Of a stretch of DNA of 56,534 nt, positions 2,738-52,338 are shown piece by piece (position 1 is the stretch's first letter; every line of letters starts with the position of its first letter). Under the pieces are notes generated by a model. It worked only from the letters and a program-made list of their open reading frames with translations. It did no database searches and was not told the origin of the DNA. Source of the stretch: Chthoniobacterales bacterium (lineage in GTDB: Bacteria; Verrucomicrobiota; Verrucomicrobiia; Chthoniobacterales; Terrimicrobiaceae); the NCBI GenBank assembly GCA_014879575.1, contig JACSRU010000154.1:1-56534 (forward strand), given 5' to 3'. A program made the position numbers and the translations under genes.

Positions 2738-4035
2738 TTGTCAACCAGCCCAAAAAGCAGGTGTCCCTCCGAGACCACCTCGCCATTCACGAGGCAACGG
2801 CAGGAGGCCTTGCCGAGACGCTTCTTGGCACTCGTCAATTCACACTCGATAAAGAGCGTATCACCCGGCATCACCGGCTTGCGGAACTTCACTTCGTCGG
2901 CGCTCATGAAGTAGCCGATCTTCCCGGCGTTCTCGGTCTTGCGCATCATGACAATGCTGGCCACTTGCGCCATGGCTTCGAGTTGAAGCACGCCGGGCAT
3001 CACCGGATGTCCCGGAAAGTGCCCTTGAAAATACGGCTCATTGATCGAGACCGCCTTGACGCCGACCGCCCGCACATCCCCTTGAAATTCGATGATGCGA
3101 TCCACCATGAGGAACGGATACCGGTGGGGCAGCGTGCGCATGACCTCATTCACATCCAGGGCGCCGGTGGTGGCCGCCACGGGGCGGACGGCGACGGCGG
3201 ACATCTCGGCCTGGCGGTCGGCGAGCCGCTTGGCAGCCTGCGTATTGATCCCGTGACCGGGCTTCACGGCAACGACATGACCGAGAATCCGTCGCCCACA
3301 AAGTGCCAGATCCCCGATGATATCCAGAATTTTGTGGCGGACAAACTCCTCCGGGAACCGGAGCGGTTCCTTACTCAGGACGCTTTCCCCCCGGGCGACA
3401 ATCGCGTTCTCCAGGCTGCCCCCCTTGATCAGCCCCTTGTCCATGAGCGGCTTGACGTCCTCATAAAAAACAAACGTGCGCGCGGGCGCAATTTCCTTCT
3501 CGTAAAATTCCGGAGTGATCTCCGCGCTCAGAAACTGGGTGAAGCGCCCCTGCGGACCGACCTGGGTGCAGGAAATCCGGAATTTTGTGTCGGGCAGGAT
3601 CACCAGAACCGATTCGCCGGATTCGATGGTGAGCGGCTCACGGATTTCCAGGTAGCTGCGCAGGGCATCCTGTTCGACAATCCCGGCCTTGAGAATCATC
3701 GCGACAAAAGCCGCTCCGCTCCCGTCGCCGATCGGCGGCTCGTTGGCATTCATCTGGATGAGGGCGTTATCCACCCCCAAACCCGTCAGGGCGGAGAGCA
3801 CGTGCTCGACCGTATGGATTTTCACCATGCCCTGCACGAGGGTCGTGGCGCGTTCGACGGTTTTGACATGGGCGGCCGCCGCCTCAACGATCGGCTCGTC
3901 GGGCAAATCCACCCGCTGGAACTTGAATCCGTGTCCGGCGGGCGCGGGAAGAATCGTGATCGTAACGTCCTCACCCGTGTGAAGGGCGCTTCCGGTCAGG
4001 GTGGCTGGGGATGCGAGTGTGCGTTGTTTATCCAC
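2734..4035 (-). CDS. lpxC/fabZ: Bifunctional UDP-3-O-acyl-GlcNAc deacetylase / 3-hydroxyacyl-ACP dehydratase (LpxC-FabZ fusion)
   Basis: Fusion of two enzymes that compete for 3-hydroxyacyl chains. The first ~290 residues are LpxC, the zinc deacetylase committing to lipid A: KIHTVEHVLSALTGLGVDN gives the first zinc His, HKILDIIGD gives the second His and the Asp, and GHVVAVKPGHG gives the general-acid His. The last ~140 residues are FabZ: LPHRYPFLMVD, then the active-site stretch YFQGHFPGHPVMPGVLQLEA with catalytic His and Glu. The start is GTG. The stop overlaps the lpxA ATG. An upstream minus-strand TATAAA about 12 bases before the start may be a -10. This fusion is known from Bacteroidetes and related or PVC lineages. 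The opposite-strand rluA-type gene begins 235 bases away. Confidence 0.96.
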   Translation of the reverse strand: MDKQRTLASPATLTGSALHTGEDVTITILPAPAGHGFKFQRVDLPDEPIVEAAAAHVKTVERATTLVQGMVKIHTVEHVLSALTGLGVDNALIQMNANEPPIGDGSGAAFVAMILKAGIVEQDALRSYLEIREPLTIESGESVLVILPDTKFRISCTQVGPQGRFTQFLSAEITPEFYEKEIAPARTFVFYEDVKPLMDKGLIKGGSLENAIVARGESVLSKEPLRFPEEFVRHKILDIIGDLALCGRRILGHVVAVKPGHGINTQAAKRLADRQAEMSAVAVRPVAATTGALDVNEVMRTLPHRYPFLMVDRIIEFQGDVRAVGVKAVSINEPYFQGHFPGHPVMPGVLQLEAMAQVASIVMMRKTENAGKIGYFMSADEVKFRKPVMPGDTLFIECELTSAKKRLGKASCRCLVNGEVVSEGHLLFGLVDK

Positions 4036-25133: not shown

Positions 25134-26162
25134 TTACTCCAACGCCTTCAGTTGATCGGGCGGAAATGGGACGGTGTTGTTATAAATCCAGTAAGAACCA
25201 ACGGTTTCGAGTGCCTTGCGGACGTTTGCACGCATCATACGGGGACTCAATGCCGTGGTATAGAATCCGGGCGACCAGACGGCCTTGGGGTTCAATTCGA
25301 GCACTCCCGCCCTTGCCTCCTGCGACCACCCCTTCAGGAATCCACTGTAGCTTCTTTCATCGCAAACCAAAACAGGATGCCCCAATCGAGCCAGCCCTTT
25401 TAGCAGTCCGCGATAATACCATGTGGGTTGGTAGATATAAAAATGTATCTCGAAATTCGGCGTAATGTCCTTGATCGCATCGACAAGTTTATCGACCTGC
25501 TTTTGTGCGCAAGTTTCGAGGTATTTCCAGTAATCCGCTTCCTTCCCCGCGGCTTCCAGCCAAGGCTTGCGCCCGGCGGCCACAGGCAGAGATTCCTTCG
25601 TTCCAATCTTTTTCAGGAATCCACCGAAGCAGGTATCACAAAAGCAATAGTGTTCATTGATCGCTCCACTGCGTTCCTTTCCGTAATACTGTTCGGTGTC
25701 CAGAATCACCCCTTTCAGTGCGGGATGATCCAGCGATTTCCTAGCGATGGTCATGACTGCCGGAATCAGGTAATCATCCCAAAATTCCTGGTTTAATGGA
25801 CAGGCGAGGAGAGGCTCTGTAAAGCCGGCGGCTGTCACCGTGCGCCGACCAATTTGTGTCCCGGGGCCCATCCCGAGCGGTATCTGAAAGTAGGCGCGCA
25901 TTTGAGTTCGAGCAGCCTCGGCCAAAACCGCATCGGTTGTCGCGAGACTCGCGGAATTAAGCCACCATCTTTCAGTCATCACCTTGCGGGGAATGGCTGT
26001 CACCAACGAATTGAAACCCGCCTTTTTGAAGGCTTCGCACCATTCCGGGTGGTCGTTCATCCCCCAGGTCCAGATGAGGGTGTATGATGCCGGTGCCGTT
26101 GCGAGTGAGCCGAAGAGAATGATGGTCGCCGCGCACAGGCTGATTCGATTCCGAAGATTCAT
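25134..26162 (-). CDS. Secreted putative glycoside hydrolase-like TIM-barrel protein
   Basis: I do not know a named family for this 342-residue protein. The N-terminus (ISLCAATIILFGSLATAPAS) is a signal peptide. The rest looks like a (beta/alpha)8 barrel: WTWGMNDHPEWCEAFKKAGFN, GVILDTEQYYG (D155, E157), VLVCDERSYSGF (E269) and GSYWIYNNTVPF. It aligns along its length with residues ~220-510 of the 741-residue protein of the same operon, where D328/E330 and E444 fall at the same places; these acids are my candidates for catalysis. HYCFCDTCFG near 171-180 has a CxCxxC pattern absent from the paralogue. It is the last gene of the operon and overlaps the one before by 4 bases. Confidence 0.7.
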   Translation of the reverse strand: MNLRNRISLCAATIILFGSLATAPASYTLIWTWGMNDHPEWCEAFKKAGFNSLVTAIPRKVMTERWWLNSASLATTDAVLAEAARTQMRAYFQIPLGMGPGTQIGRRTVTAAGFTEPLLACPLNQEFWDDYLIPAVMTIARKSLDHPALKGVILDTEQYYGKERSGAINEHYCFCDTCFGGFLKKIGTKESLPVAAGRKPWLEAAGKEADYWKYLETCAQKQVDKLVDAIKDITPNFEIHFYIYQPTWYYRGLLKGLARLGHPVLVCDERSYSGFLKGWSQEARAGVLELNPKAVWSPGFYTTALSPRMMRANVRKALETVGSYWIYNNTVPFPPDQLKALE

Positions 26163-26707
26163 TCCAAAGGCTCCAGCGAGATGCCGTCAAAATCCACATG
26201 CCCCATTGACCCGTAAGTAAAAAGAAAGACATAGGTGCTTGTGATACCATCCGGAAGTTCCAAGTCGCTCTCACTCAACACCCATTCTCCGGGAGAGACT
26301 CCCTGATCCAATGTCACCGATGCGGATCCTGCCTCCCCCGACTGACCAGCGAGTTGCCATCCAATGCTTACCCGGGGCATCGCGGCGGCGTAGTCGTCGC
26401 TGATTCTCATCCACGCCTTTAACTTATATCGCCCGGCGGGAGGCGGTTCCGCGAGTTTTTGCTGGAGAGAAAAAAAACGGGGGGCCGCCGAATTCAATGG
26501 GGCCAGGCGGGCAAATCCTGCCCCGGCAGGCGTGTCGTCCAATTCATAGGTCAGCGTTCCCAACTCGGGCTCGCGATAGGATAGTTCCCAGATTTTACCC
26601 GACTCACTAAAATTCCCGTTTGGGATGAGGTTGTTTTCAGAGTCAGCGAATGCATTGTAAAGTCCGCCGATGAGAACAGCGGTTACGAGGAGTTTTGATA
26701 GTTTCAT
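26159..26707 (-). CDS. Secreted carbohydrate-binding-like protein
   Basis: 182 residues from the ATG at 26707. MKLSKLLVTAVLIGGLYNAF is a clear signal peptide with cleavage near AFA-DS. The mature part (NLIPNGNFSE, then RYKLKAWMRISDD, and a VDFDGISLEPLE ending) follows the pattern of CBM4/9- or CBM16-type galactose-binding beta-sandwiches, in which NLxxNGxFE opens the domain and VxFDDVSL closes it. I infer binding of a glycan, with no visible catalytic residues. The start overlaps the end of the 689-residue gene and the end overlaps the start of the next gene, 4 bases each. Confidence 0.72.
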   Translation of the reverse strand: MKLSKLLVTAVLIGGLYNAFADSENNLIPNGNFSESGKIWELSYREPELGTLTYELDDTPAGAGFARLAPLNSAAPRFFSLQQKLAEPPPAGRYKLKAWMRISDDYAAAMPRVSIGWQLAGQSGEAGSASVTLDQGVSPGEWVLSESDLELPDGITSTYVFLFTYGSMGHVDFDGISLEPLE

Positions 26708-28773
26708 GATTTCATATCGTGTTGTAGGGAGGCATCTGCCACGTGGGCGTAAATACCGGGGAGGAACGAGTGGGTGCCGGCCACATGGAAATTTGTGGCA
26801 TTCATGGATTCGAGCATGCGGCGAATCGCCTCGACACAACGCCTGTCGTCAAGAAGACGTCCTGCATAAATGACCGATCCCAGGGCTGCCGCGCAGATCA
26901 GGGCATAAGGTTCGCCCTTTGACCCGTGGCTGAGCCAAATGCCATCCTCCGGTTGCGCCCGCAGCATCAGGGCCAACCACCGTTTCAATGAGTCGCGCAC
27001 CACGGGCAAAGCCCGTTCAGGATCGCGAATCGCCCATTCCACAATGGCAAGAGGGCTGAGCAACCCACAGGCGAATCCGATGTCTTCCTTTGCCTCCGTG
27101 CAGCTGGTTCCGGAATAGATCCCGACTCCGCCTTGGCCGGAAAAGCCTCCGTCGTCATTCTGCGTGGAAACAAGCCGCGTGATGGTCTGGCGCGCAAAAT
27201 CGAGATAAAGCTGATCCGCCGTGTAGTCCCACACGGTCAGGAGACTCACAACAGGATAGGCGTCGCGCCCAATGTAATGGCGCGGCTCATTTGCCCATTC
27301 CGCCGCCATATAGACTCCGATCACGGAACGGGTGATCTCCAGCAAATAGGGATCGCCGGTTTCCAGATAACCATGAAGAATACCTCCCACGCGGTATTTG
27401 GAAATCGGCGCGGTCAATTCGGCGGAACATTCCAAGCGTGGCATCCAAGATCCGTGATAAATGGACACATCTGCCGCATGGTAGGCGTGTTGCAGGGTTT
27501 GCTCCCAAACGTCAGCCGGGCATTCGCCCATTTGGAACGAGTATTTGAATAATCCGCTCGCAGCCGTTGCATCCCACTCCGGGCCGTCTTGATATGGACG
27601 GTTCTCCCGCTGATCTCTCCGCAGGTAGCGCCAGAGCCTCCCGGTGTCCATCCCGCCGAGGTGGGTATAATGACGCACCATTTCAACGGTGCGTCCGGCC
27701 ATCTTTGCGGCCGGACCGGATGTCGCACACTCGATCTCCCCGCAGTGCTCATACCACGCGGGAGGAATTTGATACCGTGCCACTTCGGGTGAAACTCCAC
27801 TCAGCCCAATTGTAAACCAGCACGAACGCGAGACGCCCGGCGGCAAGGTGTCCCGATCACCAGGTTCCAGATAGTGCCATCCATTGTCGGCATCCTTACT
27901 GGCCAAAATCCTCAAATCCTCCCATGGGGTGATCGTCGCCTCCTGGTCTCCGCATTCGAAAAGACCGGGATACGAGGCGGTGAATTGCGAGGCGCAGCCT
28001 GCGAAACTGATCTGATCATTCGTGCCGAAAACCAATCGCCTTTCTTCGATTTTTCCTCCTTGTTCCCTCCCCAAATCCAGTCCCCGCACGGTCAGAACCG
28101 GATGGGCGGGTATCGCCTTTGGCCAGTGGTGAAAGTAACCGCCATTAAAGTGGGCCGTTACTTGGATCACACCACATTTCCACACGATGACGAACAGGTC
28201 ACCGTGCAAGGAATTGCCGCAATGCTCGGCGATATTCTCGGCCACCTGCCGATGGCCCTTGTTTTCCCATCGGCCTTCTGCCTGCACCCCATAAGGAACG
28301 AGATGCCCGCCGATGCGCCATGCCTCGGCGACTTTGCCTTTCCAAAGAGATTCCGCCCGCACCCATTGCCACCACGACAGAGCCGTTCCGTCGCGCGGAC
28401 GCAATCCCATGCGCAAGCCGATGTGCCGATTGTTGCCGCAATGTAATATTGCCTCGCACTCGCGATAGACATAATTCTTCTTATCCGCTGATTCGCTAAG
28501 CACAGAAATTTCCACAGAAGAAAATTCCTCGGAAACAGAAGGATGAGATTTCCCGGAATCAACGACAAGTTCCTCCGCCAGCACATCTGACGATTCGGTC
28601 AAAAAAAGCCACCGCTTCAACCGGGTGCCCTTGTCCGTTCCAAAGAGTGGCACCGCCTGGGAAATTCCCGATGCAGCCACCGGCACAGTTTCGGAATCCG
28701 CTGGCCACGGCACCGATGTGAGGGCCACGCGGCTTTCGCGCCATTTTGCAGGCAGTTTCAGACGGATGTTCAA
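26704..28773 (-). CDS. Large protein with beta-sandwich and (alpha/alpha)-barrel features, putative polysaccharide lyase or hydrolase
   Basis: 689 residues without a signal peptide, unlike its neighbours, so probably cytoplasmic. The first ~350 residues are beta-rich (VALTSVPWPADSETVPVAA; YFHHWPKAIPAHPVLTVRG). From about 370 there are repeated helix pairs with aromatic and acidic clusters (MVRHYTHLGGMDTGRLWRYL, GILHGYLETGDPYLLEITR, RLVSTQNDDGGFSGQGGVG, WLALMLRAQPEDGIWLSHG), typical of (alpha/alpha)6 barrels. The layout resembles YetA/exo-rhamnogalacturonan lyase-like proteins, but I cannot confirm the family. The start overlaps the 741-residue gene by 4 bases. Its cytoplasmic location would suit processing of imported oligosaccharides. 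Confidence 0.68.
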   Translation of the reverse strand: MNIRLKLPAKWRESRVALTSVPWPADSETVPVAASGISQAVPLFGTDKGTRLKRWLFLTESSDVLAEELVVDSGKSHPSVSEEFSSVEISVLSESADKKNYVYRECEAILHCGNNRHIGLRMGLRPRDGTALSWWQWVRAESLWKGKVAEAWRIGGHLVPYGVQAEGRWENKGHRQVAENIAEHCGNSLHGDLFVIVWKCGVIQVTAHFNGGYFHHWPKAIPAHPVLTVRGLDLGREQGGKIEERRLVFGTNDQISFAGCASQFTASYPGLFECGDQEATITPWEDLRILASKDADNGWHYLEPGDRDTLPPGVSRSCWFTIGLSGVSPEVARYQIPPAWYEHCGEIECATSGPAAKMAGRTVEMVRHYTHLGGMDTGRLWRYLRRDQRENRPYQDGPEWDATAASGLFKYSFQMGECPADVWEQTLQHAYHAADVSIYHGSWMPRLECSAELTAPISKYRVGGILHGYLETGDPYLLEITRSVIGVYMAAEWANEPRHYIGRDAYPVVSLLTVWDYTADQLYLDFARQTITRLVSTQNDDGGFSGQGGVGIYSGTSCTEAKEDIGFACGLLSPLAIVEWAIRDPERALPVVRDSLKRWLALMLRAQPEDGIWLSHGSKGEPYALICAAALGSVIYAGRLLDDRRCVEAIRRMLESMNATNFHVAGTHSFLPGIYAHVADASLQHDMKS

Positions 28774-30995
28774 TGAGAGGCCTCCGGTTCAATGACCATT
28801 GCGATCACAGGCACGTCCTGCTGCGCTCCCCGACCCTCCAAAGCGAGGTGAATGAAGCCGTCCTTCGATTCAACTGACGCGGAAAAAATCCGATATTCGT
28901 CGGCGTTTGTTGTGATGTTATTCGCAAGAAGAACACCGTTTACGGTAGCGTTCTGATGGGTGCGGAACTCGTTTAGTCCCAGGTCGCCGAGAAGAAGGCT
29001 CACTTTGTAACGTCCGGGAGAAACCTTCGCGGTAAACGTGTTTTTTCCACTGCTGGTGATTCCGTCCGCCAGCAAAGCGAGTGCAGGATTGTCCTTCCCC
29101 AGCACTTTGCCTGCGTTTTCACTTCGATCAAAGCTCATGCGCGGGAACCGTTCCCATCCGAATGTTTTGTTCGAATTCCATTCGTCCAGACTTGTCACAC
29201 GGGTCCAACCCTCGGCGAGCGGAGAGCCGGGGAGACCGAAATCAAATTTTGCAACCGCATTCTGCCACTCTGGGAGTGGTTCACAATGGGTCGAATGTTT
29301 GTCGGCATCCACGGCATCCTTGGCGATGGCTTCCTCCTTGCTGCTGAAGGGAGACTTTAAGGAATGGTTCACCTCTCCCACAGCGGCAAATTTTCCGGTT
29401 TTCAAAAAATCAGCGAGTGCGGTGTTGGCACGTCGTAGTGCGCCATCCATTTCAGCCACCGGATCCGACTTCGCCAGGGGGTATCCGTAGCCATAAATCC
29501 AGAATCCAGCCGACTCCACGCCTGCCAGAAATGCATCTTTCCATAATCTTTCGGGATGGATCATCCGTGGCCACAAGCCCACGCAATACAGGGCATGGGC
29601 ATCCCGCGCGACAAGTGCAGCCTTCTCAAACGGGGCGTCGCCGTTGTAGCCGTAATACGTATTTTCTCCGAACGCGAGCACCGGCATCTCACGCGTGCCG
29701 AGTCCGCGGATCATGCCACGGAAAAACCAATTGTCGTAGTGCTGGAGATAACCAATGAGCAAGTCCGGTGCCTCTCGATGAATGGCCTTCTCGATCTCTC
29801 CGGTGATTCGCGCCAATTTCTTTTCGAGAAATTCATAATACTCCTGAAGTTTTCCGGCATTCAGCAAGGTTTCGAAGCGTTTCCCGGCGGCGACCTGCTC
29901 AGGACTGCCGAGGTCAGGGAAGTTTGCGCGACAAAATTCCACAAAGTTTGCTTCATCGAATGTGCAGGCGCTGCGATAGACCTCCATGTATTTCGCGCCA
30001 TACATTTCCAAATCAATCACGACTCCCGCAAGTGGGATGCCATCGGCCTTGGCGCGTCGCCACGCATCCAGCGCGGGGTTCAGGACCTGCTCCCGCCAAG
30101 CGTTCTCGTCGAGGGGGTTCGGACGGTCGTCCTCCTGCCCACTGGAAACAACGTTCTTTTGAAACTTGTCCCGTCGCAATGTATAGCGCTCGCCGCTGGC
30201 AAAATTCAGCACATGGAAAAATCGCATCCCGGCATCCTGAAAAAATCGTCCCATTCCTTCGCTATAGGGAGAGAGCACGCAATTCATGCCCGTCCCGGCG
30301 GCCCGCTTCCACAGGGCTTCCGTCGTATCCGTGAAATACCCCTTCTTTTCGTCGTATTGGTATTGCGAGGCCATGCCATAGATCGCACGAATACGTTCCG
30401 TGGCGATCCAACGAATGGCCGGTCGCCATTCCTCCGAAGAAAAAATCGCCGGTTGCCACCGCGAATCAGCAGCGGGTGTCACCCGCAAGGCCAGAAGGGC
30501 GCCGGTGGCTGGCGTCTCCCGCTCCACCCCGGCTCGCACGCGAAGTTTTCCACCGGGGTGTTCCACCCTCGCCCGCGACCACATCGGCATCCCGATAAAT
30601 CCATACACTGCGGAAATGACGCGTTTTCCATTGACTTCGACAAACATTCCCGGACGAAACGAATCGGATCGCTCTCCCAACAAAACACTCAAATCATACG
30701 CCCCGGCGGGCAGTTCCACTCCAAACTCCAGCGGTTTTTCATTGGTGAAGCGAACGCCGTCACGTCCCAAGGCATCCAGCGGATCCGCCTGTGGAACATC
30801 AACCGCCTCTGTGGGCGCAAGAATCCACTCAAAGGGAATTTTCCCCTCGATGCCACGCGGAGTTACCCGTGTCCATTCAGGTTCAAGCGGCGACTTTTCC
30901 GTGCCAAAATCCAGGCGCACTTCTTTTGCGTGAAGTGACAGACCAAGCATTAAAGTTGCCGCCAGAGTTAGCATGCGTATTTTCTGTGTTGTCAT
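28770..30995 (-). CDS. Secreted three-domain protein: two galactose-binding-like sandwiches around a glycosidase-like barrel
   Basis: 741 residues with a signal peptide (MLTLAATLMLGLSLHAKEV). Residues ~25-175 and ~582-738 are two related beta-sandwich modules: VRLDFGTEKSPLEPEWTRVT with AGAYDLSVLLGE and MFVEVNGKRV, and KFDFGLPGSPLAEGWTRVT with PGRYKVSLLLGD and ATVNGVLL. Such modules occur in plant-cell-wall esterases and lyases. Between them lies a barrel with GVVIDLEMYG (D328, E330), DNWFFRGMIRGLG and VLAFGENTYYGY (E444), matching the 342-residue protein of this operon. I infer a glycoside hydrolase of an unassigned family. The start overlaps the pseudopilin gene by 4 bases. Confidence 0.72.
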   Translation of the reverse strand: MTTQKIRMLTLAATLMLGLSLHAKEVRLDFGTEKSPLEPEWTRVTPRGIEGKIPFEWILAPTEAVDVPQADPLDALGRDGVRFTNEKPLEFGVELPAGAYDLSVLLGERSDSFRPGMFVEVNGKRVISAVYGFIGMPMWSRARVEHPGGKLRVRAGVERETPATGALLALRVTPAADSRWQPAIFSSEEWRPAIRWIATERIRAIYGMASQYQYDEKKGYFTDTTEALWKRAAGTGMNCVLSPYSEGMGRFFQDAGMRFFHVLNFASGERYTLRRDKFQKNVVSSGQEDDRPNPLDENAWREQVLNPALDAWRRAKADGIPLAGVVIDLEMYGAKYMEVYRSACTFDEANFVEFCRANFPDLGSPEQVAAGKRFETLLNAGKLQEYYEFLEKKLARITGEIEKAIHREAPDLLIGYLQHYDNWFFRGMIRGLGTREMPVLAFGENTYYGYNGDAPFEKAALVARDAHALYCVGLWPRMIHPERLWKDAFLAGVESAGFWIYGYGYPLAKSDPVAEMDGALRRANTALADFLKTGKFAAVGEVNHSLKSPFSSKEEAIAKDAVDADKHSTHCEPLPEWQNAVAKFDFGLPGSPLAEGWTRVTSLDEWNSNKTFGWERFPRMSFDRSENAGKVLGKDNPALALLADGITSSGKNTFTAKVSPGRYKVSLLLGDLGLNEFRTHQNATVNGVLLANNITTNADEYRIFSASVESKDGFIHLALEGRGAQQDVPVIAMVIEPEASH

Positions 30996-31600
30996 AATCC
31001 CCAGGCGTTCCGAATTTCCTCGCCTCCCTGCTTAAACGATTTCACCGCAGAGCCATCCATCATCACTGCGTTGCAAAAACCGCCGTGGCGAAACTCCGGA
31101 TTTTCATACCCCCCACCCCACCCCGGTCGTAAACTCGTGCGGCTCGCATCAATAAACAGGATGCTCTGGCTGCGACGGATGGCAGGATTAAAAATATTTG
31201 CCGAGGTGAATCCATTGCCCAAACACTGGTTGCAGGCATAGCTGGCCTTCCCCTCAAGGAAGGGTTTCTGATCAGCCGGACAACGATACAATTTTGGAAA
31301 ATCCCGCGTCTGAGTGTTTGAATCGTAGGGGCCGACGTATTCGTTAAGCAGACGATAAAAGACCCAGGAATCGGAAGGTGAAGCCTGGTAGTAGGCTGGA
31401 GGCAGATTCCCTTGGTGGTCATTGGCGTATTGCAGGGCGGCACCACCCATTTGGCGAAGGTTCGAAATGCAGCGGGTGGACTGTGCTCTCACAATAACCC
31501 CCTTTATGGGCACCATCAGGAGAACGACAAGAATGCTGATGATCGCCACCCCTGACAAAATCTCCATGAGAGAAAATCCCTTCTCTCCTGTTCGCTTCAT
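30992..31600 (-). CDS. Pseudopilin-like protein with prepilin leader and H-X9-DG motif
   Basis: 202 residues. GEKGFSLMEILSGVAIISIL is a type IV prepilin/GspG-like leader: cleavage after Gly8, Phe9 at +1 and Glu13 at +5, followed by the hydrophobic helix. The C-terminal HGGFCNAVMMDG is the H-X9-DG motif found in large families of such proteins in Planctomycetes, Lentisphaerae and Verrucomicrobia. CRCPADQKPF-like and CNQC cysteines may form disulfides. No secretion ATPase or other pilus genes are nearby. Function is unknown; the family is widespread as single genes placed in carbohydrate clusters. It overlaps the next gene by 4 bases and lies 21 bases after the PEP-CTERM gene. Confidence 0.85.
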   Translation of the reverse strand: MKRTGEKGFSLMEILSGVAIISILVVLLMVPIKGVIVRAQSTRCISNLRQMGGAALQYANDHQGNLPPAYYQASPSDSWVFYRLLNEYVGPYDSNTQTRDFPKLYRCPADQKPFLEGKASYACNQCLGNGFTSANIFNPAIRRSQSILFIDASRTSLRPGWGGGYENPEFRHGGFCNAVMMDGSAVKSFKQGGEEIRNAWGL

Positions 31601-31621
31601 CCCGATTGAAATTTGAACCTC

Positions 31622-32365
31622 TCAGTTCGTATTCTTTTTACGAAACCGAAGTCCGAGGGCCGCAAGTCCGCCGAGAACCAGAAGTGACACGGTTGGCTCG
31701 GGAATCATGGAAATACCGGAACCGCTCATGGAAAACGTGTCGAGGTGATAGTTCATGGCGAGCCCCGAAGTGCCGGCAGACCACGATGGCTGGAGCCGGA
31801 CAGTGCCGATATCCGCAAGATCCGAGTAAGTATAGCTACCTCCAAATGACCATCCACCTGCCAAGGTGTTTGGAGCGGAAAGCATGGCGGTTGAGACGGT
31901 GGCAAAGCTTCCCCCGGTATTCCCACTGTTTGATGTCGTGTAGTAACTCGCCACATGATTCACTAAATCACTATTCTTAAACAAACGAATGTAAATACTT
32001 GTGCCGGTCTGGCCGGTTGTATCATTCCGAATTTTGAAGCTGATGTTCGTGTCCGTGGAATTAAAATTCTGCACGGTTCCACTCGTGGACAGAAGCCCGA
32101 CATTCAACATTGTGTAGAAATATCCGAATTGGCTACCGGTCGTTCCAGTCATTTGAAATGAAGCCGGTGCGGACGAATAAACTGCCGTATCGAATCCGTA
32201 GGTGGGCCCGCTGGTGTTATTGGCACCATACGAGTCCAGAATTGTTTTCCCTTCGAGCGTCGCGGAGTCGAATCCATAGTTCAAGGTTGCGGCACTCATG
32301 ACGGGCAGCGCGGCAGCCGTGAGAATCGCGGCGGCCATCAGGCGGAGGGTGGATATTTTTTTCAT
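31622..32365 (-). CDS. PEP-CTERM sorting domain protein
   Basis: 247 residues, exported (MKKISTLRLMAAAILTAAAL, cleavage near MSA-AT). The mature part is rich in Ser, Thr, Gly, Asn and Tyr and is probably a beta-sandwich (NYGFDSATLEGKTILDSYGA, GWSFGGSYTYSDLADIGTVR). The C-terminus IPEPTVSLLVLGGLAALGLRF followed by RKKNTN is a textbook PEP-CTERM signal: Pro-Glu-Pro, hydrophobic helix and basic tail, cleaved by an exosortase. It is probably attached to the surface or exopolysaccharide. No exosortase is in the window. It begins 17 bases after the regulator stop, so both are on one transcript. Confidence 0.9.
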   Translation of the reverse strand: MKKISTLRLMAAAILTAAALPVMSAATLNYGFDSATLEGKTILDSYGANNTSGPTYGFDTAVYSSAPASFQMTGTTGSQFGYFYTMLNVGLLSTSGTVQNFNSTDTNISFKIRNDTTGQTGTSIYIRLFKNSDLVNHVASYYTTSNSGNTGGSFATVSTAMLSAPNTLAGGWSFGGSYTYSDLADIGTVRLQPSWSAGTSGLAMNYHLDTFSMSGSGISMIPEPTVSLLVLGGLAALGLRFRKKNTN

Positions 32366-32382
32366 GATGATTAGGGTGGGAT

Positions 32383-33906
32383 TTATAGTTTTTGGTTTGG
32401 GTGGAAATTATTTTCTCTGTCCAGGATTCCTGCGTCATATTGAGCCAGCAGGAGGTGTTTCAAGAGGGTTTCGGAACTCACGGGGCGGTCCTTTTGAAAT
32501 TCGTCCTGCAAAATCGGGATCAGTGCCCCGGCGACCAGATCGGAATCGGAGGCTTCCCATCGTCCGCATTCCTCCAGGTCGCGATAGGTTCTCTTCCAGT
32601 TCTCCGGCAACTTGTCGGAGTAGAAGCGATCCTTGTCTGGATCTTTAAAGAGGGAGTTCAGACTCGGGGCGACGCCCTGCCGACGCATGGTTGCGCCCCC
32701 TTCACCGTCATGAATCCAGCGTTCCCATTCAAAAATATACTGCCCCGCACAACGACGAGCCATCTCATCCGCATTTGCATTGACCACCCATCCGACGGTG
32801 TTCATGAGAGAAAAGGGACTGCTATTTGGCCCGATTGGGAGAGCTTTGAGAGTAAAGAGGGCGGTTTGATCGAGTTCCACGGCCGCTGAGAGCATGATCT
32901 CCTCCAATACCATCGGAACCTGTCCGGCAAGGAATGGCGAGATTTGCGCCAAACGGTTGGAGGAATTCACCAACCGAATCAGCTTTCGGTCAAAGAACAT
33001 CTCGAGAAGAAAGTCCATTCCGACGCGCGCGGATTTGCTTTGCCAGTCAATCAACGGCAAGCGCCCTCTCGCTGGCAACGCGGGGTCCGCCTGATAGACC
33101 CAATGCGTCAACAGCCAGAACAGGCCACGCCCGGAAACATGCAGCGGCTCCACCCCATGAATGGCTTTCAATCGCTCGCATTGATCGGCGAAATCGTCCC
33201 ATGATTGGAATTCCGCATCCGGATTCAACCCAGCCTGGCGAAAGATCTCGGCGTTGCAAACCAAATGCGAATAGCTACAGCCGAAAGGCAGGAAACGGCA
33301 TTTCCCATCAACAAAAGAATGTTCGAGATACTTGTCGTTCAGCAGATCAAGATACCGCCCCGCCTCACCCGAATCCAACACACCCGGAGCTTTGTAATCG
33401 TTCAAAAACTCGAGATAGGTCTGCGGAAACTCCGCAAGCGTGGGATGTTCGCCTTGAATAAAATTTTCGAGCTGGCGGGACAAAAAATCAGAAAACGGCA
33501 CATCAAATTTTTCATTGAAAAACCGCGCGGCCGGCGTGGTTTTTCCGAAATTTTTTTGAAACCGCCTCCTGACAATCGCCTGTTTCATCCTTCGCGTGCT
33601 TCTCTTGCAATTCGCCCAGAGATGGATTTCGCCCAAAGCGGAGTCTTTTCGCAACACGCTCAGGGATTCCCCGCCTGCCGATGGACTCAGAAACGTATAT
33701 GAGCCTTCCCGAGACTCGATGAGCCCGCGACTCTTTAATAAATCCATGGCCCTGCCGACTGTAAAGTGACTGACATTCAGTCCCCGGGCCCATTCCCGAC
33801 GACTCGGCAGGGGCTCGTCCCGACGATACCGACCACTTTCCAATTCTTCCAAAATCCTTTGGGTCGTTCGTTTAAGCAACGGGGAGTTGGGGGCGGAACA
33901 CTGCAT
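32383..33906 (-). CDS. GntR-type regulator fused to a solute-binding-protein-like sensor domain
   Basis: 507 residues from the ATG at 33906. Residues ~8-75 are a GntR winged helix (LLKRTTQRILEELESGRY, then EPLPSRREWARGLNVSHFTV and GRAMDLLKSRGLIESREGSY). From about residue 140 the chain resembles an extracellular solute-binding protein family 1 (sugar ABC) domain: FLPFGCSYSHLVCNAEIFRQ, GLNPDAEFQSWDDFADQCER, SPFLAGQVPMVLEE and TVGWVVNANADEMARR. There is no signal peptide, so the sugar-binding fold works inside the cell as the ligand sensor. It is the first gene of the operon and probably autoregulates it. The mRNA leader is very short and has no Shine-Dalgarno. Confidence 0.85.
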   Translation of the reverse strand: MQCSAPNSPLLKRTTQRILEELESGRYRRDEPLPSRREWARGLNVSHFTVGRAMDLLKSRGLIESREGSYTFLSPSAGGESLSVLRKDSALGEIHLWANCKRSTRRMKQAIVRRRFQKNFGKTTPAARFFNEKFDVPFSDFLSRQLENFIQGEHPTLAEFPQTYLEFLNDYKAPGVLDSGEAGRYLDLLNDKYLEHSFVDGKCRFLPFGCSYSHLVCNAEIFRQAGLNPDAEFQSWDDFADQCERLKAIHGVEPLHVSGRGLFWLLTHWVYQADPALPARGRLPLIDWQSKSARVGMDFLLEMFFDRKLIRLVNSSNRLAQISPFLAGQVPMVLEEIMLSAAVELDQTALFTLKALPIGPNSSPFSLMNTVGWVVNANADEMARRCAGQYIFEWERWIHDGEGGATMRRQGVAPSLNSLFKDPDKDRFYSDKLPENWKRTYRDLEECGRWEASDSDLVAGALIPILQDEFQKDRPVSSETLLKHLLLAQYDAGILDRENNFHPNQKL

Positions 33907-33912
33907 GTTTGT

Positions 33913-33964
33913 TTTTGAGGAAATACCAAATATTCCAAATATGTCAATATTTATTTTGAGGAAA
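33913..33964 (-). promoter_or_regulatory. Promoter and probable operator of the glycan operon
   Basis: On the minus strand, -35 TTGACA (33947-33942), a 16-base spacer and -10 TATTTC (33925-33920) precede the regulator ATG by 13 bases. The promoter is bracketed by a perfect 11-base direct repeat, TTTTGAGGAAA on the plus strand, at 33913-33923 and 33954-33964: 41 bases apart, close to four helical turns. The spacer holds TATTTGG twice, 9 bases apart, and AAATATT/AATATTT form an inverted repeat. The proximal repeat covers the -10 edge and start site, which suits repression by a dimeric regulator. Confidence 0.55.
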
Positions 33965-34000: not shown

Positions 34001-34161
34001 CTCCAAGGTGCGATGCGCCACCTGAAAGACTGAAGGCACAGCGGATTCGTGCCCAGTGGTTGTTGGAAGCCTGACTTTGCTACCGTCCTCATTTTTTAGC
34101 TAATACATGGAACGGTGTCGCAAGCGGCAACTGTCTGCGGCTTTCGCGTAGAAGATTTTTG

Positions 34162-34195
34162 CCCTGCGCCCGAACCTGCCGGTTTCAGCGCAGGG
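34162..34195 (-). terminator. Stem-loop over the amidase stop codon
   Basis: CCCTGCGC (34162-34169) and GCGCAGGG (34188-34195) are perfect 8-base inverted repeats enclosing the amidase stop (34185-34187). No T-run follows on the minus strand. It is a likely 3'-end structure. Confidence 0.4.
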
Positions 34196-34856
34196 TGTTG
34201 CGATATTCCACGATGCCGGTGCAGAGGGCCTTGGCGAGTTTTTGGCGGTAGGAGGCCTTCCTGACCATGTCGGCATCGGTTCGGTTGGTGAGAAAGCCGC
34301 ATTCCGCCAACACGGCGCGGCTGCGGGTTTTTCTCAGCACGCAAAATCTGGCGCGTTTGATTCCGCGATTGGTTCCATCCGTGGTTTTTGCGAGGTGGCG
34401 CAGGATGGTGGCGGCGAGGGGGGCTTCTCCGGGCGTGGCGTAGTGGACATCCACCCCGCGGGGGGTCCGTTTTGGGGAGGAATCAAAATGAATGCTGACA
34501 AAAACAGCACCGGGATGCGAGTTGGCGATTGCGGCGCGCGAGTCGAGGGGGATGAAGACATCCTTCCTGCGGGTCAGCACGGTTTTGAAACCGGCCTTTT
34601 TGAGTTCCTTGTCCAACCGGAGCGCGACATCGAGGGTCGCCTGTTTTTCCGAGAGGAGATTTTGCGGGATGCCGCCGTCATCCCGTCCCCCGTGCCCGGC
34701 ATCAACCACCACGGTGGAAAAGGGCGTGTTCGAATAGTTTTTCTGGATGGCGGGAGGAGAGGGCGTCCGGGATTTTTTGGCGGAACGCCTCGACTTGGCC
34801 TCCGCCGATAGAACGGAAACCAACAACGCCAGTAAAATGAAAAAGCCCCTTTTCAA
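34185..34856 (-). CDS. N-acetylmuramoyl-L-alanine amidase (Amidase_3)
   Basis: Zinc amidase that cleaves the bond between MurNAc and the stem peptide in the periplasm. VVVDAGHGGRDDGG gives the first zinc His, LLSEKQATLDVALRL the Glu ligand, VFVSIHFDSS the second His and AVLAECGFLTN the catalytic Glu. The N-terminus is a signal peptide (KRGFFILLALLVSVLSAEA). No ATG fits; I chose the TTG at 34856 (223 residues), which has GAAGGG 7 bases upstream. TTG 34862 is the alternative. There is no AMIN or SPOR targeting domain. It follows manC on the same strand after 96 bases. Confidence 0.88.
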   Translation of the reverse strand: MKRGFFILLALLVSVLSAEAKSRRSAKKSRTPSPPAIQKNYSNTPFSTVVVDAGHGGRDDGGIPQNLLSEKQATLDVALRLDKELKKAGFKTVLTRRKDVFIPLDSRAAIANSHPGAVFVSIHFDSSPKRTPRGVDVHYATPGEAPLAATILRHLAKTTDGTNRGIKRARFCVLRKTRSRAVLAECGFLTNRTDADMVRKASYRQKLAKALCTGIVEYRNTLR

Positions 34857-34952
34857 AATCAAATCCCTTCGACGGTAGCACGCATTCGGAAAGTCGCAAA
34901 AACGAGGAGAAAAAATCCGGGGTGCCACGCCGGATCCGGCTCCCGGTCCTTC

Positions 34953-36047
34953 TCAGAGGAGATCCTGTCCGTGGGCCTCGCCGACAAGTTTGTGCAATTC
35001 CTTGATATTTTCCGCCTGGTCGGCGCGACAGACGAGGGTGGCATCCGGCGTGTGAATGATCAACAGATTCTCGCACCCGATCGTGGTGATCACGTGGCGG
35101 GGATCGCTGGACGCCACCAGGGTGTTCCGGGTGTCGAGGAGGGTGGCCCGTCCGCCACCGAGAGCGTTGCCGGCGGCATCGCGGGGACAGGTCTCCGCAA
35201 ACATCGGCCAGGAACCGACATCCAGCCACCGGAGCGGCATGGGAACGGCCGCAACCCGGATGAGCGGGTCACGCGAAGCCGGTTCCATGACCGCAAAATC
35301 CACGCTGATTTTTTTCAGATCCGGAAATGTCTCCGCAAGCACGGCGGCCCGTCGGACGGTATTCCATGCGGCGCCGATCTTCTCCAGGCCGGCAAAATTT
35401 TCCGGTTCGTAGCGCCGGATGCAATCCAGGAGCGTCGAAGCCCGCCAAACAAACATCCCGCTATTCCAAAGGTAGCGTTCCGGCCCGGCGGAGACATAGT
35501 CGGCGGCGGTTTGCGCATCCGGCTTTTCCCGGAACTGCCGGACGATGCGGGCCGACTCATCAATGGGATCTCCGAGTTCGAGATACCCGTATCCCGTGGC
35601 GGCGGCCGTCGGGGTGATCCCGAAGGTGACCAGGGTTCGGGAATCCTCCTCGGCCAGCCGGAAACCGTGCTCGACAATCTGCAAAAAGTCCTCCACCGGC
35701 TCGATGATGTGATCCGCGGTAAAAACCGCGATGACCGCATCCGGATCGCGCGAGGCAATGGCCGCCGCGCTGAAACCGACGGCGTTCAACGTATCGCGAC
35801 CGACAGGCTCGCCGAGAAATTGCTCGCGGGAGAAACCCGTCAGAGCACCGGCGATTGCCTCCTCGTGGCCCTGGCCGGCACAGATGTGGCGATTGGAGGG
35901 CGCCACAAGCCCGTCCAGTCTGTCAAAGGCGAGTTGCAGCAGACTTTTCCCCCCGATGAAGGGGAGGAGTTGCTTGGGCTGTTTGGTCCGGCTCATGGGC
36001 CAGAGGCGCGTGCCCGAACCCCCGGCGATAATCAGGGCGTGCCTCAT
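34953..36047 (-). CDS. manC: Mannose-1-phosphate guanylyltransferase
   Basis: Makes GDP-mannose from mannose-1-phosphate and GTP for polysaccharide and glycolipid synthesis. Its 364 residues contain IIAGGSGTRLWPMSRTKQPKQ as the nucleotidyltransferase signature, FTADHIIEP as the metal/sugar loop, GYGYLELG, FREKPD and YLWNSGMFVWRAS, all standard. There is no C-terminal phosphomannose isomerase domain, so it is the short monofunctional type. The start overlaps the stop of the parA-like gene by 4 bases. Its place among amidases suggests an envelope-polysaccharide role. Confidence 0.93.
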   Translation of the reverse strand: MRHALIIAGGSGTRLWPMSRTKQPKQLLPFIGGKSLLQLAFDRLDGLVAPSNRHICAGQGHEEAIAGALTGFSREQFLGEPVGRDTLNAVGFSAAAIASRDPDAVIAVFTADHIIEPVEDFLQIVEHGFRLAEEDSRTLVTFGITPTAAATGYGYLELGDPIDESARIVRQFREKPDAQTAADYVSAGPERYLWNSGMFVWRASTLLDCIRRYEPENFAGLEKIGAAWNTVRRAAVLAETFPDLKKISVDFAVMEPASRDPLIRVAAVPMPLRWLDVGSWPMFAETCPRDAAGNALGGGRATLLDTRNTLVASSDPRHVITTIGCENLLIIHTPDATLVCRADQAENIKELHKLVGEAHGQDLL

Positions 36048-36850
36048 GGGTTCGTTTGCGGCGCGCTGGTGAATGCCACCCCGCTTTTCTGGCGCTCAAG
36101 AAACTCCTGGGCAAGCGCCGCGTAGGCAGCCGCCCCGGTGCCGGCCGGATCGTGCTCGAAAATCGTCCGGCCATGACTCGGCGCCTCGGCAAATCGGACG
36201 GTTCGCGGGATGAGCGTCGTATAAACGACTTCCTGAAAATGCTCCCGCACCTCGGCGACCACGGCGGGATTCAAGTTGGTGCGCCCGTCGAACATCGTCA
36301 TAAGAAGTCCGGAAATCGTGAGGTGGGGGTTCGCTCCGCTGGCACGAATCCGCTCGGTGACTTCCATCAGGAGCCCGAGCCCCTCGAGCGCATAATACTC
36401 GCACTGGATCGGCACGAGAATCTCATCGGCAGCCGCCAGCGCGTTCGACATCAGGATTCCCAGCGACGGCGGGCAATCCAACAACGCAAAATCAAAAAGG
36501 TTCTGACTCCGGATGTCTTCAAGCACCTTCCGGAGCTGGAGAAGGTGGTCCTCCATCCTTGCCACCTCGATCTCCGCGCCCGCCATGTCGAGATCGGCGG
36601 GAATGGCGGAGAGATTCGGGATGCGCGTGGGCACGACCAATTCCCGGGCAGGCCGGCTCCCAATGAGTGCCTGGTAGATGCTCTCCGAGGAGTCCTCCTT
36701 CAAACCCAGCACGCTGGTCGCGCTGGCCTGGGGATCAAGGTCCACCAGGAGGATTCTCGACCCCGCAGCCGCAAGAGCCGCCGAGAGATTGACCGAAGTG
36801 GTGGTCTTGCCGACCCCGCCTTTTTGATTCGTGATGGCAATAATTTTCAT
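36044..36850 (-). CDS. ParA/Soj-family ATPase
   Basis: 268 residues. IAITNQKGGVGKTTTSVNLS is the deviant Walker A with the signature Lys; LLVDLDPQASATSVLG is Walker A' and FALLDCPPSLGILMSNAL is Walker B, with YYALEGLGLLMEVTERIR following as in Soj. It would be a chromosome-partition-type ATPase, but no parB follows. It is translationally coupled to an amidase upstream and manC downstream (4-base overlaps on both sides). It may therefore be a chromosomal Soj away from parB, or a positioning ATPase for envelope enzymes. The sequence does not decide. Confidence 0.9.
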   Translation of the reverse strand: MKIIAITNQKGGVGKTTTSVNLSAALAAAGSRILLVDLDPQASATSVLGLKEDSSESIYQALIGSRPARELVVPTRIPNLSAIPADLDMAGAEIEVARMEDHLLQLRKVLEDIRSQNLFDFALLDCPPSLGILMSNALAAADEILVPIQCEYYALEGLGLLMEVTERIRASGANPHLTISGLLMTMFDGRTNLNPAVVAEVREHFQEVVYTTLIPRTVRFAEAPSHGRTIFEHDPAGTGAAAYAALAQEFLERQKSGVAFTSAPQTNP

Positions 36851-38061
36851 GGTGATCGCTGGGAGTAATAGTTGACGAGGCCCGCCGTGACGGCATCCGC
36901 ATATTCGCGGTAGATGCTTTTTCTTTCCGAACCTCCGAGGGATTTGAGTCCTTCGTAGTCGCCGGCCTGAATCCGCGCAAAGGCCGGACGGCTATTCATG
37001 ACATAAGGCTCGAAATAAACAACCGGGCAGTGAAAAAGTCGGTTGGCGAGAAGATTTCGTCCCCAGACATACGGGCTGTCGCCGACCCGGATGACACTTC
37101 CGCCATGGTATGTGTAGGGGGGGAGACCGGTGGCCTTGGCCATGACCCCGGCCATTGTGTGGGCAAGGGAGATTTCCTCGCCATGCGAACGGTTGAGCAA
37201 CTTGACCAACATGTCCAGTCGCTGGTCCTCGTAGGAGAGTTCGTCACCGGACCATGCCCCTGTGACCAAAAAATGCAGGTGGTTTTCCTCAACGAGCCGG
37301 GGCTTCCGCTCGTCCCCCCAATCCTCCGCATTGAAGTGCAGGCAGAGAACGAGATCCGGCTGGATGGCTTCGTTGACAAGCCGCGCCCGCCGCCGGATTT
37401 CGCTCACCCGGTAAAAAAGGCGTTCGCTTTCCTTGGTCACCGCCTGCTTGGTGACCGGTTCCTTCTTTTGTTGCAGGGAGCCCACCGCCGCGCCTCGAAG
37501 TTGGGCGGGCCGCGCACTGGTCACAGGCCCGGGCTTGGAGCGCGTCAGGAAGACCTCGGCCCCGAGAGCTTTCAGCCTCGCCGACAAAAGTTTTGCGACC
37601 TTCAGGGTCATGTCCCCTTCGGTGACCGGCCTGGTTTTTCCGATCTGGAACCAACGCTCTTCCATCTTTGCCCAGCTTCCACCCAGGTGTCCGGGATCAA
37701 TGGCAATCTTGAGCCCGGCAAGCGGCTTGCTCGGATCGGTGGCCGACAGGGCACTTCGCGGACGCCAGGAAATCGGCAGAGGACGCGCCGTGACACCGTC
37801 GGCGGCAAATTTCAAGACATACGGAGGCCTGCCGGGGGCCGTCTCGATCACGGCCGAGTCGTCGGTGAGGGAGATCGTCCCCTTCCAGGCACCCCCTGGT
37901 GCATAAATTTTTTCCAGAGCGCTCAAAAAATCCCCCTTCGTGATCGTCTGCTGGAATTTGTCCAGGCTCGACCAATCCGGCTTCGGCGCCAGCGGGCTCA
38001 ACCGGGCTTCGGCGGACAGGGCAAGGAAAAAGGCGAAAAAAATGGGAAAGAGTTTTTTCAA
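36847..38061 (-). CDS. N-acetylmuramoyl-L-alanine amidase-like exported protein
   Basis: 404 residues starting at TTG 38061; signal peptide KLFPIFFAFFLALSAEARL. Residues ~20-110 are a unique N-terminal domain (WSSLDKFQQTITKGDFLSAL). The amidase_3 core begins at LKIAIDPGHLGGSW (zinc His). A long insertion rich in Lys, Gln and Arg (~200-230) precedes DLVLCLHFNAEDWGD (second His). The usual first-Glu segment is TRPVTEGDMTLKVAKLL, and VYFEPYVMN is the probable catalytic Glu region. It starts the amidase-parA-manC chain and diverges from the YmdB-type gene 49 bases away. Amidase activity is likely but the fold has extra parts. Confidence 0.8.
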   Translation of the reverse strand: MKKLFPIFFAFFLALSAEARLSPLAPKPDWSSLDKFQQTITKGDFLSALEKIYAPGGAWKGTISLTDDSAVIETAPGRPPYVLKFAADGVTARPLPISWRPRSALSATDPSKPLAGLKIAIDPGHLGGSWAKMEERWFQIGKTRPVTEGDMTLKVAKLLSARLKALGAEVFLTRSKPGPVTSARPAQLRGAAVGSLQQKKEPVTKQAVTKESERLFYRVSEIRRRARLVNEAIQPDLVLCLHFNAEDWGDERKPRLVEENHLHFLVTGAWSGDELSYEDQRLDMLVKLLNRSHGEEISLAHTMAGVMAKATGLPPYTYHGGSVIRVGDSPYVWGRNLLANRLFHCPVVYFEPYVMNSRPAFARIQAGDYEGLKSLGGSERKSIYREYADAVTAGLVNYYSQRSP

Positions 38062-51171: not shown

Positions 51172-52338
51172 TTAGACGCACATGCCGTGCGCTTCAAGCA
51201 ACGGTTTCAAATTGTTTTCGTCCAGGCGGAGGATCTTCATCTCGCGGCGGGCGTTCTCCGGGGAGTCCGACGCGTGCGCGGCGTTGATCATGACCGTCTG
51301 GCCGAATTCTTTTCTGATGGATCCGGGGGGAGCCTTCGAGGGATCGGTGGGGCCGAGCACCTCGCGAATTTTTGCCACGGCGTCCACCCCGCGATAAACC
51401 AGGGCCACGCATTTTTCCGTGCCGGGAAGCGCGCGCTTCTCCGGCGGACATTGGGCGGGACGGATGCCCGCCATGAATTGAATGATCGATTCCCAGTGGG
51501 CGCGCCCGGCGATGGGACACAGCAACTCCCCCAGCGCGGTTTCCGTCGGGTCATCCAGCGGCACCCCAAGCTCCTCCTCGACCGCCAATCTCGCCCGCTT
51601 CCCGATCGGCTCCCGCATCTTGTCCAGCAGGACATCCAGAACCGGACCGTAAAATTCCATCGCCTCGGCCACACTCATGTGATGGACCTTGAACCCGATG
51701 AGCGAAAGCCCGGTGCGTGAGAACGTCTCGATGACGCCCCCGGGCCGCGCGTTTGGAAACCGGAAATTGTCGGGCTTGATCAGAACAAGCGTCGTCTCGA
51801 CATTTTCCCCGGCGGGAAAAATCACGCTCTCGGGCAGAACTCCGCCGTCACTGTCGGAAAATTTCGCCCACAGCGCCAGGTGGGAACGCGCGCTGGCGAC
51901 ATCCGGAGCCGCCAGCACGGCGGGCTCGAAATAGACGACCTTCCCGTCCTCCACGACATAGTCGCCATAAGTATCGCGGAGGGTCTCCCCCCGCGGACGG
52001 GCGGCAACGATGTGGCCCGTGATGGTCCGCGTTTTTGCCACGGCATTTTCGCCGCGCAACACCAACAGCAAAACCCTCGCCGGCGTCCCATCCGCCGCCG
52101 GAACAAATTTTTTGCGGACATATTCCCGGATCGCCTCCTGGATGGCCTGGTGTTTGGGATCCGGTTCCCCGGCCACCACATCCGCGTAGGCACTTGCAAG
52201 TTCCGGGCCTGGCGCAAACATCCGCCCTCCCACGAGTTCCAGCCCCGTCCTCGCCAACAACCGGGAAATGATCCCGCCCGTTCGCGACTTCACCAGCGAG
52301 TAGGGAGTGAGTAGGACGTAGGAAAGCTCTTCAGCCAT
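51172..52338 (-). CDS. Tandem nucleoside diphosphate kinase-like protein
   Basis: 388 residues containing two NDK folds. The second (about 180-375) is complete: TTLVLIKPDNFRFPNARPGG, LVYRGVDAVAKIREVLGPTD, PPGSIRKEFG and INAAHASDSPENARREMK with catalytic His355. The first (about 1-160) keeps the frame of the fold (YVLLTPYSLVKSRTGGIISR; LVLRGENAVAKTRTITGH; LRDTYGDYVV), but the catalytic His position is replaced by a VVYFEPAVLAAPDVASAR segment. So one half is probably inactive, serving structure or regulation. Normal NDK has ~140 residues. It is the first gene of the ndk-aspC-pfkB unit. Confidence 0.88.
   Translation of the reverse strand: MAEELSYVLLTPYSLVKSRTGGIISRLLARTGLELVGGRMFAPGPELASAYADVVAGEPDPKHQAIQEAIREYVRKKFVPAADGTPARVLLLVLRGENAVAKTRTITGHIVAARPRGETLRDTYGDYVVEDGKVVYFEPAVLAAPDVASARSHLALWAKFSDSDGGVLPESVIFPAGENVETTLVLIKPDNFRFPNARPGGVIETFSRTGLSLIGFKVHHMSVAEAMEFYGPVLDVLLDKMREPIGKRARLAVEEELGVPLDDPTETALGELLCPIAGRAHWESIIQFMAGIRPAQCPPEKRALPGTEKCVALVYRGVDAVAKIREVLGPTDPSKAPPGSIRKEFGQTVMINAAHASDSPENARREMKILRLDENNLKPLLEAHGMCV

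Follow-up and report, generated by a model that had tools for sequence, protein, structure and literature searches.

The locus and its gene content

Do seven tightly packed genes of a Verrucomicrobiota genome, joining a transcriptional regulator, a surface protein, a pseudopilin and enzyme-like proteins, form one unit, and what would such a unit do? The genes are consecutive on the minus strand at positions 25134-33906 of the window, i.e., the whole stretch of 56,534 nucleotides that was analysed (a Chthoniobacterales bacterium of the Terrimicrobiaceae; contig C109 of a genome of 3.6 Mb in 178 contigs). The features are given below in the direction of reading; lengths are in amino acids (aa).

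33914..33955, minus strand: promoter- or operator-like element AAAATAAATATTGACATATTTGGAATA, AT-rich with TTGACA, directly upstream of the regulator start
32383..33906, minus strand: one-component regulator, 507 aa, GntR winged helix-turn-helix plus putative SBP_bac_1/8 domain, without signal peptide
31622..32365, minus strand: secreted surface protein, 247 aa, with a PEP-CTERM-like C-terminus (from its sequence: a signal peptide and the tail IPEP-TM-RKK)
30992..31600, minus strand: prepilin-type pseudopilin, 202 aa, with the H-X9-DG motif HGGFCNAVMMDG (TIGR02532, motif by sequence)
28770..30995, minus strand: exported protein, 741 aa, with a TIM barrel (about 200-535) between two galactose-binding-like domains (Pfam and structure model)
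26704..28773, minus strand: probably cytosolic protein, 689 aa, TTG start, N-terminal beta part and (alpha/alpha)6 barrel (351-689; structure model)
26159..26707, minus strand: exported carbohydrate-binding-like protein, 182 aa, assigned from the appearance of its sequence
25134..26162, minus strand: exported TIM-barrel protein, 342 aa, paralogue of the central barrel of the 741-aa protein

Each of the seven frames appears in the frame list of the window; 17 and 21 bases separate the genes at the first two junctions, and the final four junctions are 4-base overlaps, in agreement with a preliminary description made from the letters of the window. By sequence, the genes flanking the operon are housekeeping ones, with a DAHP synthase-like gene at one end and an amidase-like gene at the other. 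The locus is probably a self-regulated glycan-processing cassette that has a surface protein and a pseudopilin of its own, much as the preliminary description proposed. Of that proposal, the co-inherited unit, the regulator domains, the sugar-enzyme folds and the conserved promoter-like element are observed; from these we infer a glycan as substrate class, catalysis by the enzyme-like proteins, control of the operon by its own regulator and a role for the pseudopilin.

Conservation of the cassette in relatives

G005, a member of the Terrimicrobiaceae from another genus, has all seven genes in the same order over two contigs, with 53-73% identity to the window. One contig (L113) carries regulator, surface protein and prepilin at its end, and the genes of the 741-, 689-, 182- and 342-aa proteins lie on another (L008) with the same 4-base overlaps; the two contigs are presumed to join in nature. 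The chromosomal neighbour differs in G005 (a SufS-like gene), thus the unit is conserved and the site is not. Comparison with this copy shows purifying selection on each of the seven genes (pN/pS 0.24-0.44). In a verrucomicrobium from groundwater (L020), six of these genes are present in another order: a regulator-prepilin fusion, then the 182-, 342- and 741-aa genes, about 1 kb without homology, and the 689-aa gene. The search for the same gene order in other Verrucomicrobiota, which the preliminary description had suggested, thus finds the homologues together in both G005 and L020.

The arrangement goes beyond chance, since the three junctions between enzyme genes are 4-base overlaps also in the G005 copy, which is 57-73% identical there, and purifying selection acts on every gene of the seven. 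That the genes are chance neighbours, or are read as several transcripts, is very improbable given that gene order, overlaps and selection are kept in another genus. These results support the seven genes as a coherent co-inherited unit.

The 689-aa family extends beyond the cassette: it comprises 36 loci, reaching Lentisphaerae, Planctomycetota, Armatimonadetes and Actinobacteria, and its distant relatives (about 25% identity) come without the other genes. Three more copies (L018, L019 and L021) have 45-56% identity and partly different neighbours; L019, from Phycisphaerae (45%), lacks the other cassette genes. The term «verrucomicrobial», used in the preliminary description for the module, is thus too narrow for this family. 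An Oscillospiraceae genome carries three distant homologues in tandem (L030, 5058-12232).

The regulator and its upstream element

The length of 507 aa is counted from ATG; the longest open frame begins at 34092. The GntR domain scores 38.3 bits for a Pfam cut-off of 27. The solute-binding domain of the window regulator is below its cut-offs (SBP_bac_1: 23.3 vs. 26; SBP_bac_8: 21 vs. 27), and the orthologues exceed theirs (30.5 in L113 of G005; 49.1 and 51.4 in L020). A PDB search with the regulator matches both GntR regulators and binding proteins of sugar ABC systems. Inspection reveals no signal peptide, so both domains should be cytosolic, which agrees with the cytoplasmic sensor described earlier.

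G005 keeps the upstream element, and its distance from the regulator start is similar there (local alignment score of 37, vs. a maximum of 27 in 300 shuffles). A strict sigma-70 promoter scan does not list the TTGACA element. An 11-base direct repeat TTTCCTCAAAA flanks this element on both sides, within 100 bases upstream of 33906 (minus strand); it is not reported for the relative.

Predicted exported barrel proteins and the 689-aa protein

The 741-aa protein matches AGA-YXIM_GBD over the Pfam cut-off, and its structure model (pLDDT 68.6, pTM 0.56) gives a TIM barrel between two galactose-binding-like domains, in line with the barrel and two beta-sandwich domains that had been described. Among the folds nearest to the modelled barrel are GH42 (glycoside hydrolase (GH) family 42; Z 18.3) and PgaB (Z 18.0), and also beta-amylases; Foldseek with the same model returns agarases and other glycosidases. 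The 342-aa protein, earlier noted simply as a barrel, can now be placed as a paralogue of this central barrel (E=4.7e-16, 28% identity). Both barrels have a D-x-E motif (VIDLE / ILDTE / MFDME), kept in every alignment row that covers it. No family is over cut-off for the 182-aa protein in the Pfam and NCBIfam search; its orthologue stands at the same place in G005 (57-61% identical) and is 36% identical in L020. The N-termini of the 741-, 342- and 182-aa proteins resemble, by inspection, those of exported proteins.

The 689-aa protein is probably cytosolic, since inspection finds no signal peptide; none is seen at the start of any of the three close copies inspected. Its model (pLDDT 61.8, pTM 0.72) gives an (alpha/alpha)6 barrel, as the preliminary description had anticipated. 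The modelled barrel is closest to N-acylglucosamine 2-epimerase (AGE; Z 18.5 over 299 residues, 4.2 A), followed at the level of fold by GH88, GH105 and GH76 (Z 15-17).

Neither Pfam nor NCBIfam gives a match to a GH or polysaccharide lyase family up to E=1 for the 741-, 342- and 689-aa proteins, and a PDB sequence search with the 741- and 689-aa proteins returned nothing usable. The earlier term «putative glycosidases» thus fits the folds of the large proteins, but by sequence no named CAZy family can be assigned.

Proposed function

The cassette would work as follows: (i) the regulator would sense a cytosolic sugar through its binding-protein domain and control the promoter of its own operon; (ii) the surface protein would probably be sorted by an exosortase; (iii) the pseudopilin would be a minor one, dedicated to the locus and matured by the prepilin peptidase; (iv) outside the cytoplasm, the glycan would be acted on by the two related TIM-barrel proteins and the binding protein, all three exported; (v) the (alpha/alpha)6-barrel enzyme would work on the imported product in the cytosol; (vi) the pseudopilin would most likely help a type II/IV-type machine to export the enzymes of the locus or to hold them at the surface. 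Uptake would have to depend on transporters encoded elsewhere: no transporter is found among the seven genes, and Pfam finds neither SusC nor SusD there. Lacking this pair, the locus is not a SusCD polysaccharide utilization locus, in agreement with the preliminary description.

The operon might instead remodel the bacterium's own exopolysaccharide or envelope glycan rather than an external one. This is a serious rival because the nearest folds of the 741-aa barrel include PgaB (practically as near as GH42), which serves exopolysaccharide export as a deacetylase-hydrolase, and because the operon has no transporter; in passages of PMC1569441, moreover, PEP-CTERM proteins are associated with exopolysaccharide. 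A cytosolic sugar-binding regulator and a cytosolic fold of epimerase/hydrolase type nevertheless point to the catabolism of imported sugar, and sister loci of similar layout (see below) hold GH2, DUF4838 and rhamnogalacturonan-lyase-like genes. Remodelling of an own glycan is on balance unlikely, though worth retaining.

Several points weigh against the glycan-processing cassette as proposed. Besides the absence of a transporter, (i) the cassette is rare, the 741-aa protein being matched in 3 of 117 relatives, namely the own genome, G005 and, weakly and partially, G093, where the match spans only a galactose-binding-like domain; (ii) the G005 copy is split, so that its continuity is assumed; (iii) the enzymes of the operon fit no named CAZy family by sequence; (iv) the structure models are only moderately confident; (v) the prepilins of the order mostly adjoin secreted proteins, not regulators.

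Surface protein and pseudopilin

The 247-aa protein, previously described as a PEP-CTERM protein, has a signal peptide and a PEP-CTERM-like tail but falls slightly under the cut-offs of the models (TIGR02595: 15.2 bits for 16; PF07589: 17.1 bits for 20.7), and its G005 copy has PES in place of PEP. The 202-aa protein has the prepilin signature (TIGR02532 at 19.5 bits for a cut-off of 16.3), and the H-X9-DG motif noted earlier is visible in its sequence. The H-X9-DG model TIGR04294 is not reported for the window pilin; it is over cut-off in two of the fusions described below (L020 and L207). A single prepilin peptidase and three exosortases are encoded in the own genome, which therefore has the means to process the two kinds of surface protein.

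Linkage of regulators and prepilins in the genome

In the own genome there are 56 prepilin signatures, and 11 GntR and 15 LacI genes are over cut-off. Ten of these 26 regulator genes lie within 3.5 kb of a prepilin (p=3e-5), for 2.2 expected, since 8.5% of the genome is within that distance. When the window locus and the fusion are left out, 8 of 24 remain (p=6e-4). The distance of 3.5 kb is one of four that were tried; with GntR and LacI taken together, p does not exceed 5e-4 at any of them. For LacI alone the linkage is weak (p 0.02 to 0.26 over the four distances). None of the 18 response regulators of the genome lies within 3.5 kb of a prepilin. The linkage of sensor regulators to prepilins is thus not random here. 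That the two would be adjacent throughout the order was considered as a general rule and rejected: the best-matching prepilins elsewhere mostly follow secreted proteins.

The layout regulator, PEP-CTERM protein, prepilin, enzyme recurs at several loci of the own genome. Loci of this or a similar layout are:

L161, own genome: GntR, PEP-CTERM, prepilin, DUF4838
L151, own genome: divergent GntR, PEP-CTERM, prepilin, 824-aa protein
L148, own genome: LacI upstream, PEP-CTERM, prepilin
L152: GntR, prepilin, GH2

Regulator-prepilin fusions

Eight single-frame fusions of a regulator and a prepilin were found, spread over four genomes; their regulators are of two classes (GntR-SBP and LacI):

L020: GntR-SBP-prepilin fusion, 709 aa
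L157, 2401-4134 (own genome, G000:C57): LacI plus H-X9-DG prepilin fusion, 578 aa, followed by a gene for a PEP-CTERM-type protein
G517:C209, C225, C345 and C349: LacI-prepilin fusions
G507:C89 and C27: LacI-prepilin fusions

Both halves are recognised by Pfam or NCBIfam in L157, L020, L204 and L207; the pilin half of L203 (G517:C225) and the prepilin half of C345, C349 and C27 are seen by motif only. Every fusion retains the [A/G]-F-T-x-x-E prepilin start after a short linker that follows the regulator. An assembly error is unlikely since there are eight fusions in two regulator classes. Among the neighbours of the fusions examined are GH36, alginate lyase/heparinase-like and CBM9 genes. Several other long frames over prepilins (e.g., in G000:C43) were rejected as fusions, such frames being open by chance in G+C-rich DNA. 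No paper describing regulator-prepilin fusions turned up in the literature searched, which is not proof of absence.

In the 951-aa frame of L203 (2719-5574), which adjoins a GH36 melibiase gene, LacI and a prepilin helix share one chain with a GH20-type domain. Either a genuine fusion of three parts or a gene in decay could account for it.

These fusions raise another role for the pseudopilin, namely as part of a sensing device in which it would be the partner of the regulator at the inner membrane. In a fusion, the transcription factor would be tethered by the prepilin helix and released once the peptidase cleaves at the [A/G]-F site; in the window, regulator and pseudopilin would be partners made as separate proteins but co-translated. 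The intact [AG]-F-T-x-x-E in all eight fusions, spread over four genomes and two classes, is consistent with this, and the topology fits, with the DNA-binding part cytosolic and the pilin domain outside. A fusion may, however, reflect mere co-expression or the loss of a stop codon between neighbours, and an internal start could yield the pilin. Moreover, the PEP-CTERM-like gene stands between regulator and pseudopilin in the window, and most GntR/LacI genes have no prepilin near them. Co-expression, in-frame read-through with an internal start and membrane tethering would all leave such a trace. A sensing role for the pseudopilin is improbable. The broader idea, that glycan-sensing transcription factors of Verrucomicrobiota are physically coupled to type IV prepilin-like proteins, the fusions being held at the inner membrane and released by the peptidase so that the processing or assembly of pilins would act back on glycan operon transcription, with the window operon as the unfused form, is a shade more doubtful still. 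The glycan-processing cassette with a pseudopilin serving export or display remains the preferred reading, and the recurrence of the gene set in relatives, with regulator and pseudopilin fused in some of them, suggests a link between sensing and the display of glycan machinery at the surface.

Comparison with known systems

Among published systems, the nearest parallel is an alginate cluster (pgaptmp_000046-60) in Verruconatronum alginivorum, as described in passages of PMC13274419: the cluster includes a PulG-like pseudopilin and is upregulated on alginate, the genome has 67 homologues of this pseudopilin, and type II secretion of the lyases is suggested by the authors. Both are verrucomicrobial glycan clusters that contain a pseudopilin and are no canonical polysaccharide utilization locus. 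The V. alginivorum cluster differs in having named lyases and a transporter; a regulator-pseudopilin pair or fusion is not described in those passages of the paper.

Like SusCD loci, the window locus joins a regulator and putative glycan enzymes, but its seven genes include neither SusC/SusD nor another transporter. The pilin has the prepilin start and motif of H-X9-DG prepilins (TIGR04294/TIGR02532); it differs from them in belonging to an enzyme operon led by a regulator, and it has relatives that are fused to the regulator. The predicted C-terminal half of the 689-aa protein shares the fold of the AGE, GH88, GH105 and GH76 barrels (Z 15-18.5), whereas the protein has no sequence family match and has an extra N-terminal beta part. 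Effector domains of the GntR family are usually UTRA, FCD or aminotransferase domains. The window regulator has the N-terminal winged helix-turn-helix of GntR one-component regulators, whereas its effector would be a solute-binding domain of the sugar-ABC type.

The coupling and fusion of regulators and prepilins is a feature that specialists would probably not expect. Verrucomicrobiota hold dozens of prepilin-type proteins per genome, and the linkage to sensors gives a testable hypothesis for their role; it also offers a means of locating such glycan loci as belong to bacteria without SusCD. Three enzyme-like proteins of the operon are beyond the current sequence models of carbohydrate-active enzymes.

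Other features of the window

Three further features of the window were noted from their sequences, all on the minus strand:

34185-38061, minus strand: ParA-like ATPase and sugar-phosphate guanylyltransferase-like gene between two amidase-like genes, tightly packed and adjoining the operon
2734-4035, minus strand: putative LpxC-FabZ fusion, which would combine a lipid A enzyme and a fatty acid enzyme in a single protein
51172-52338, minus strand: 388-aa protein, apparently of two tandem nucleoside-diphosphate-kinase-like halves

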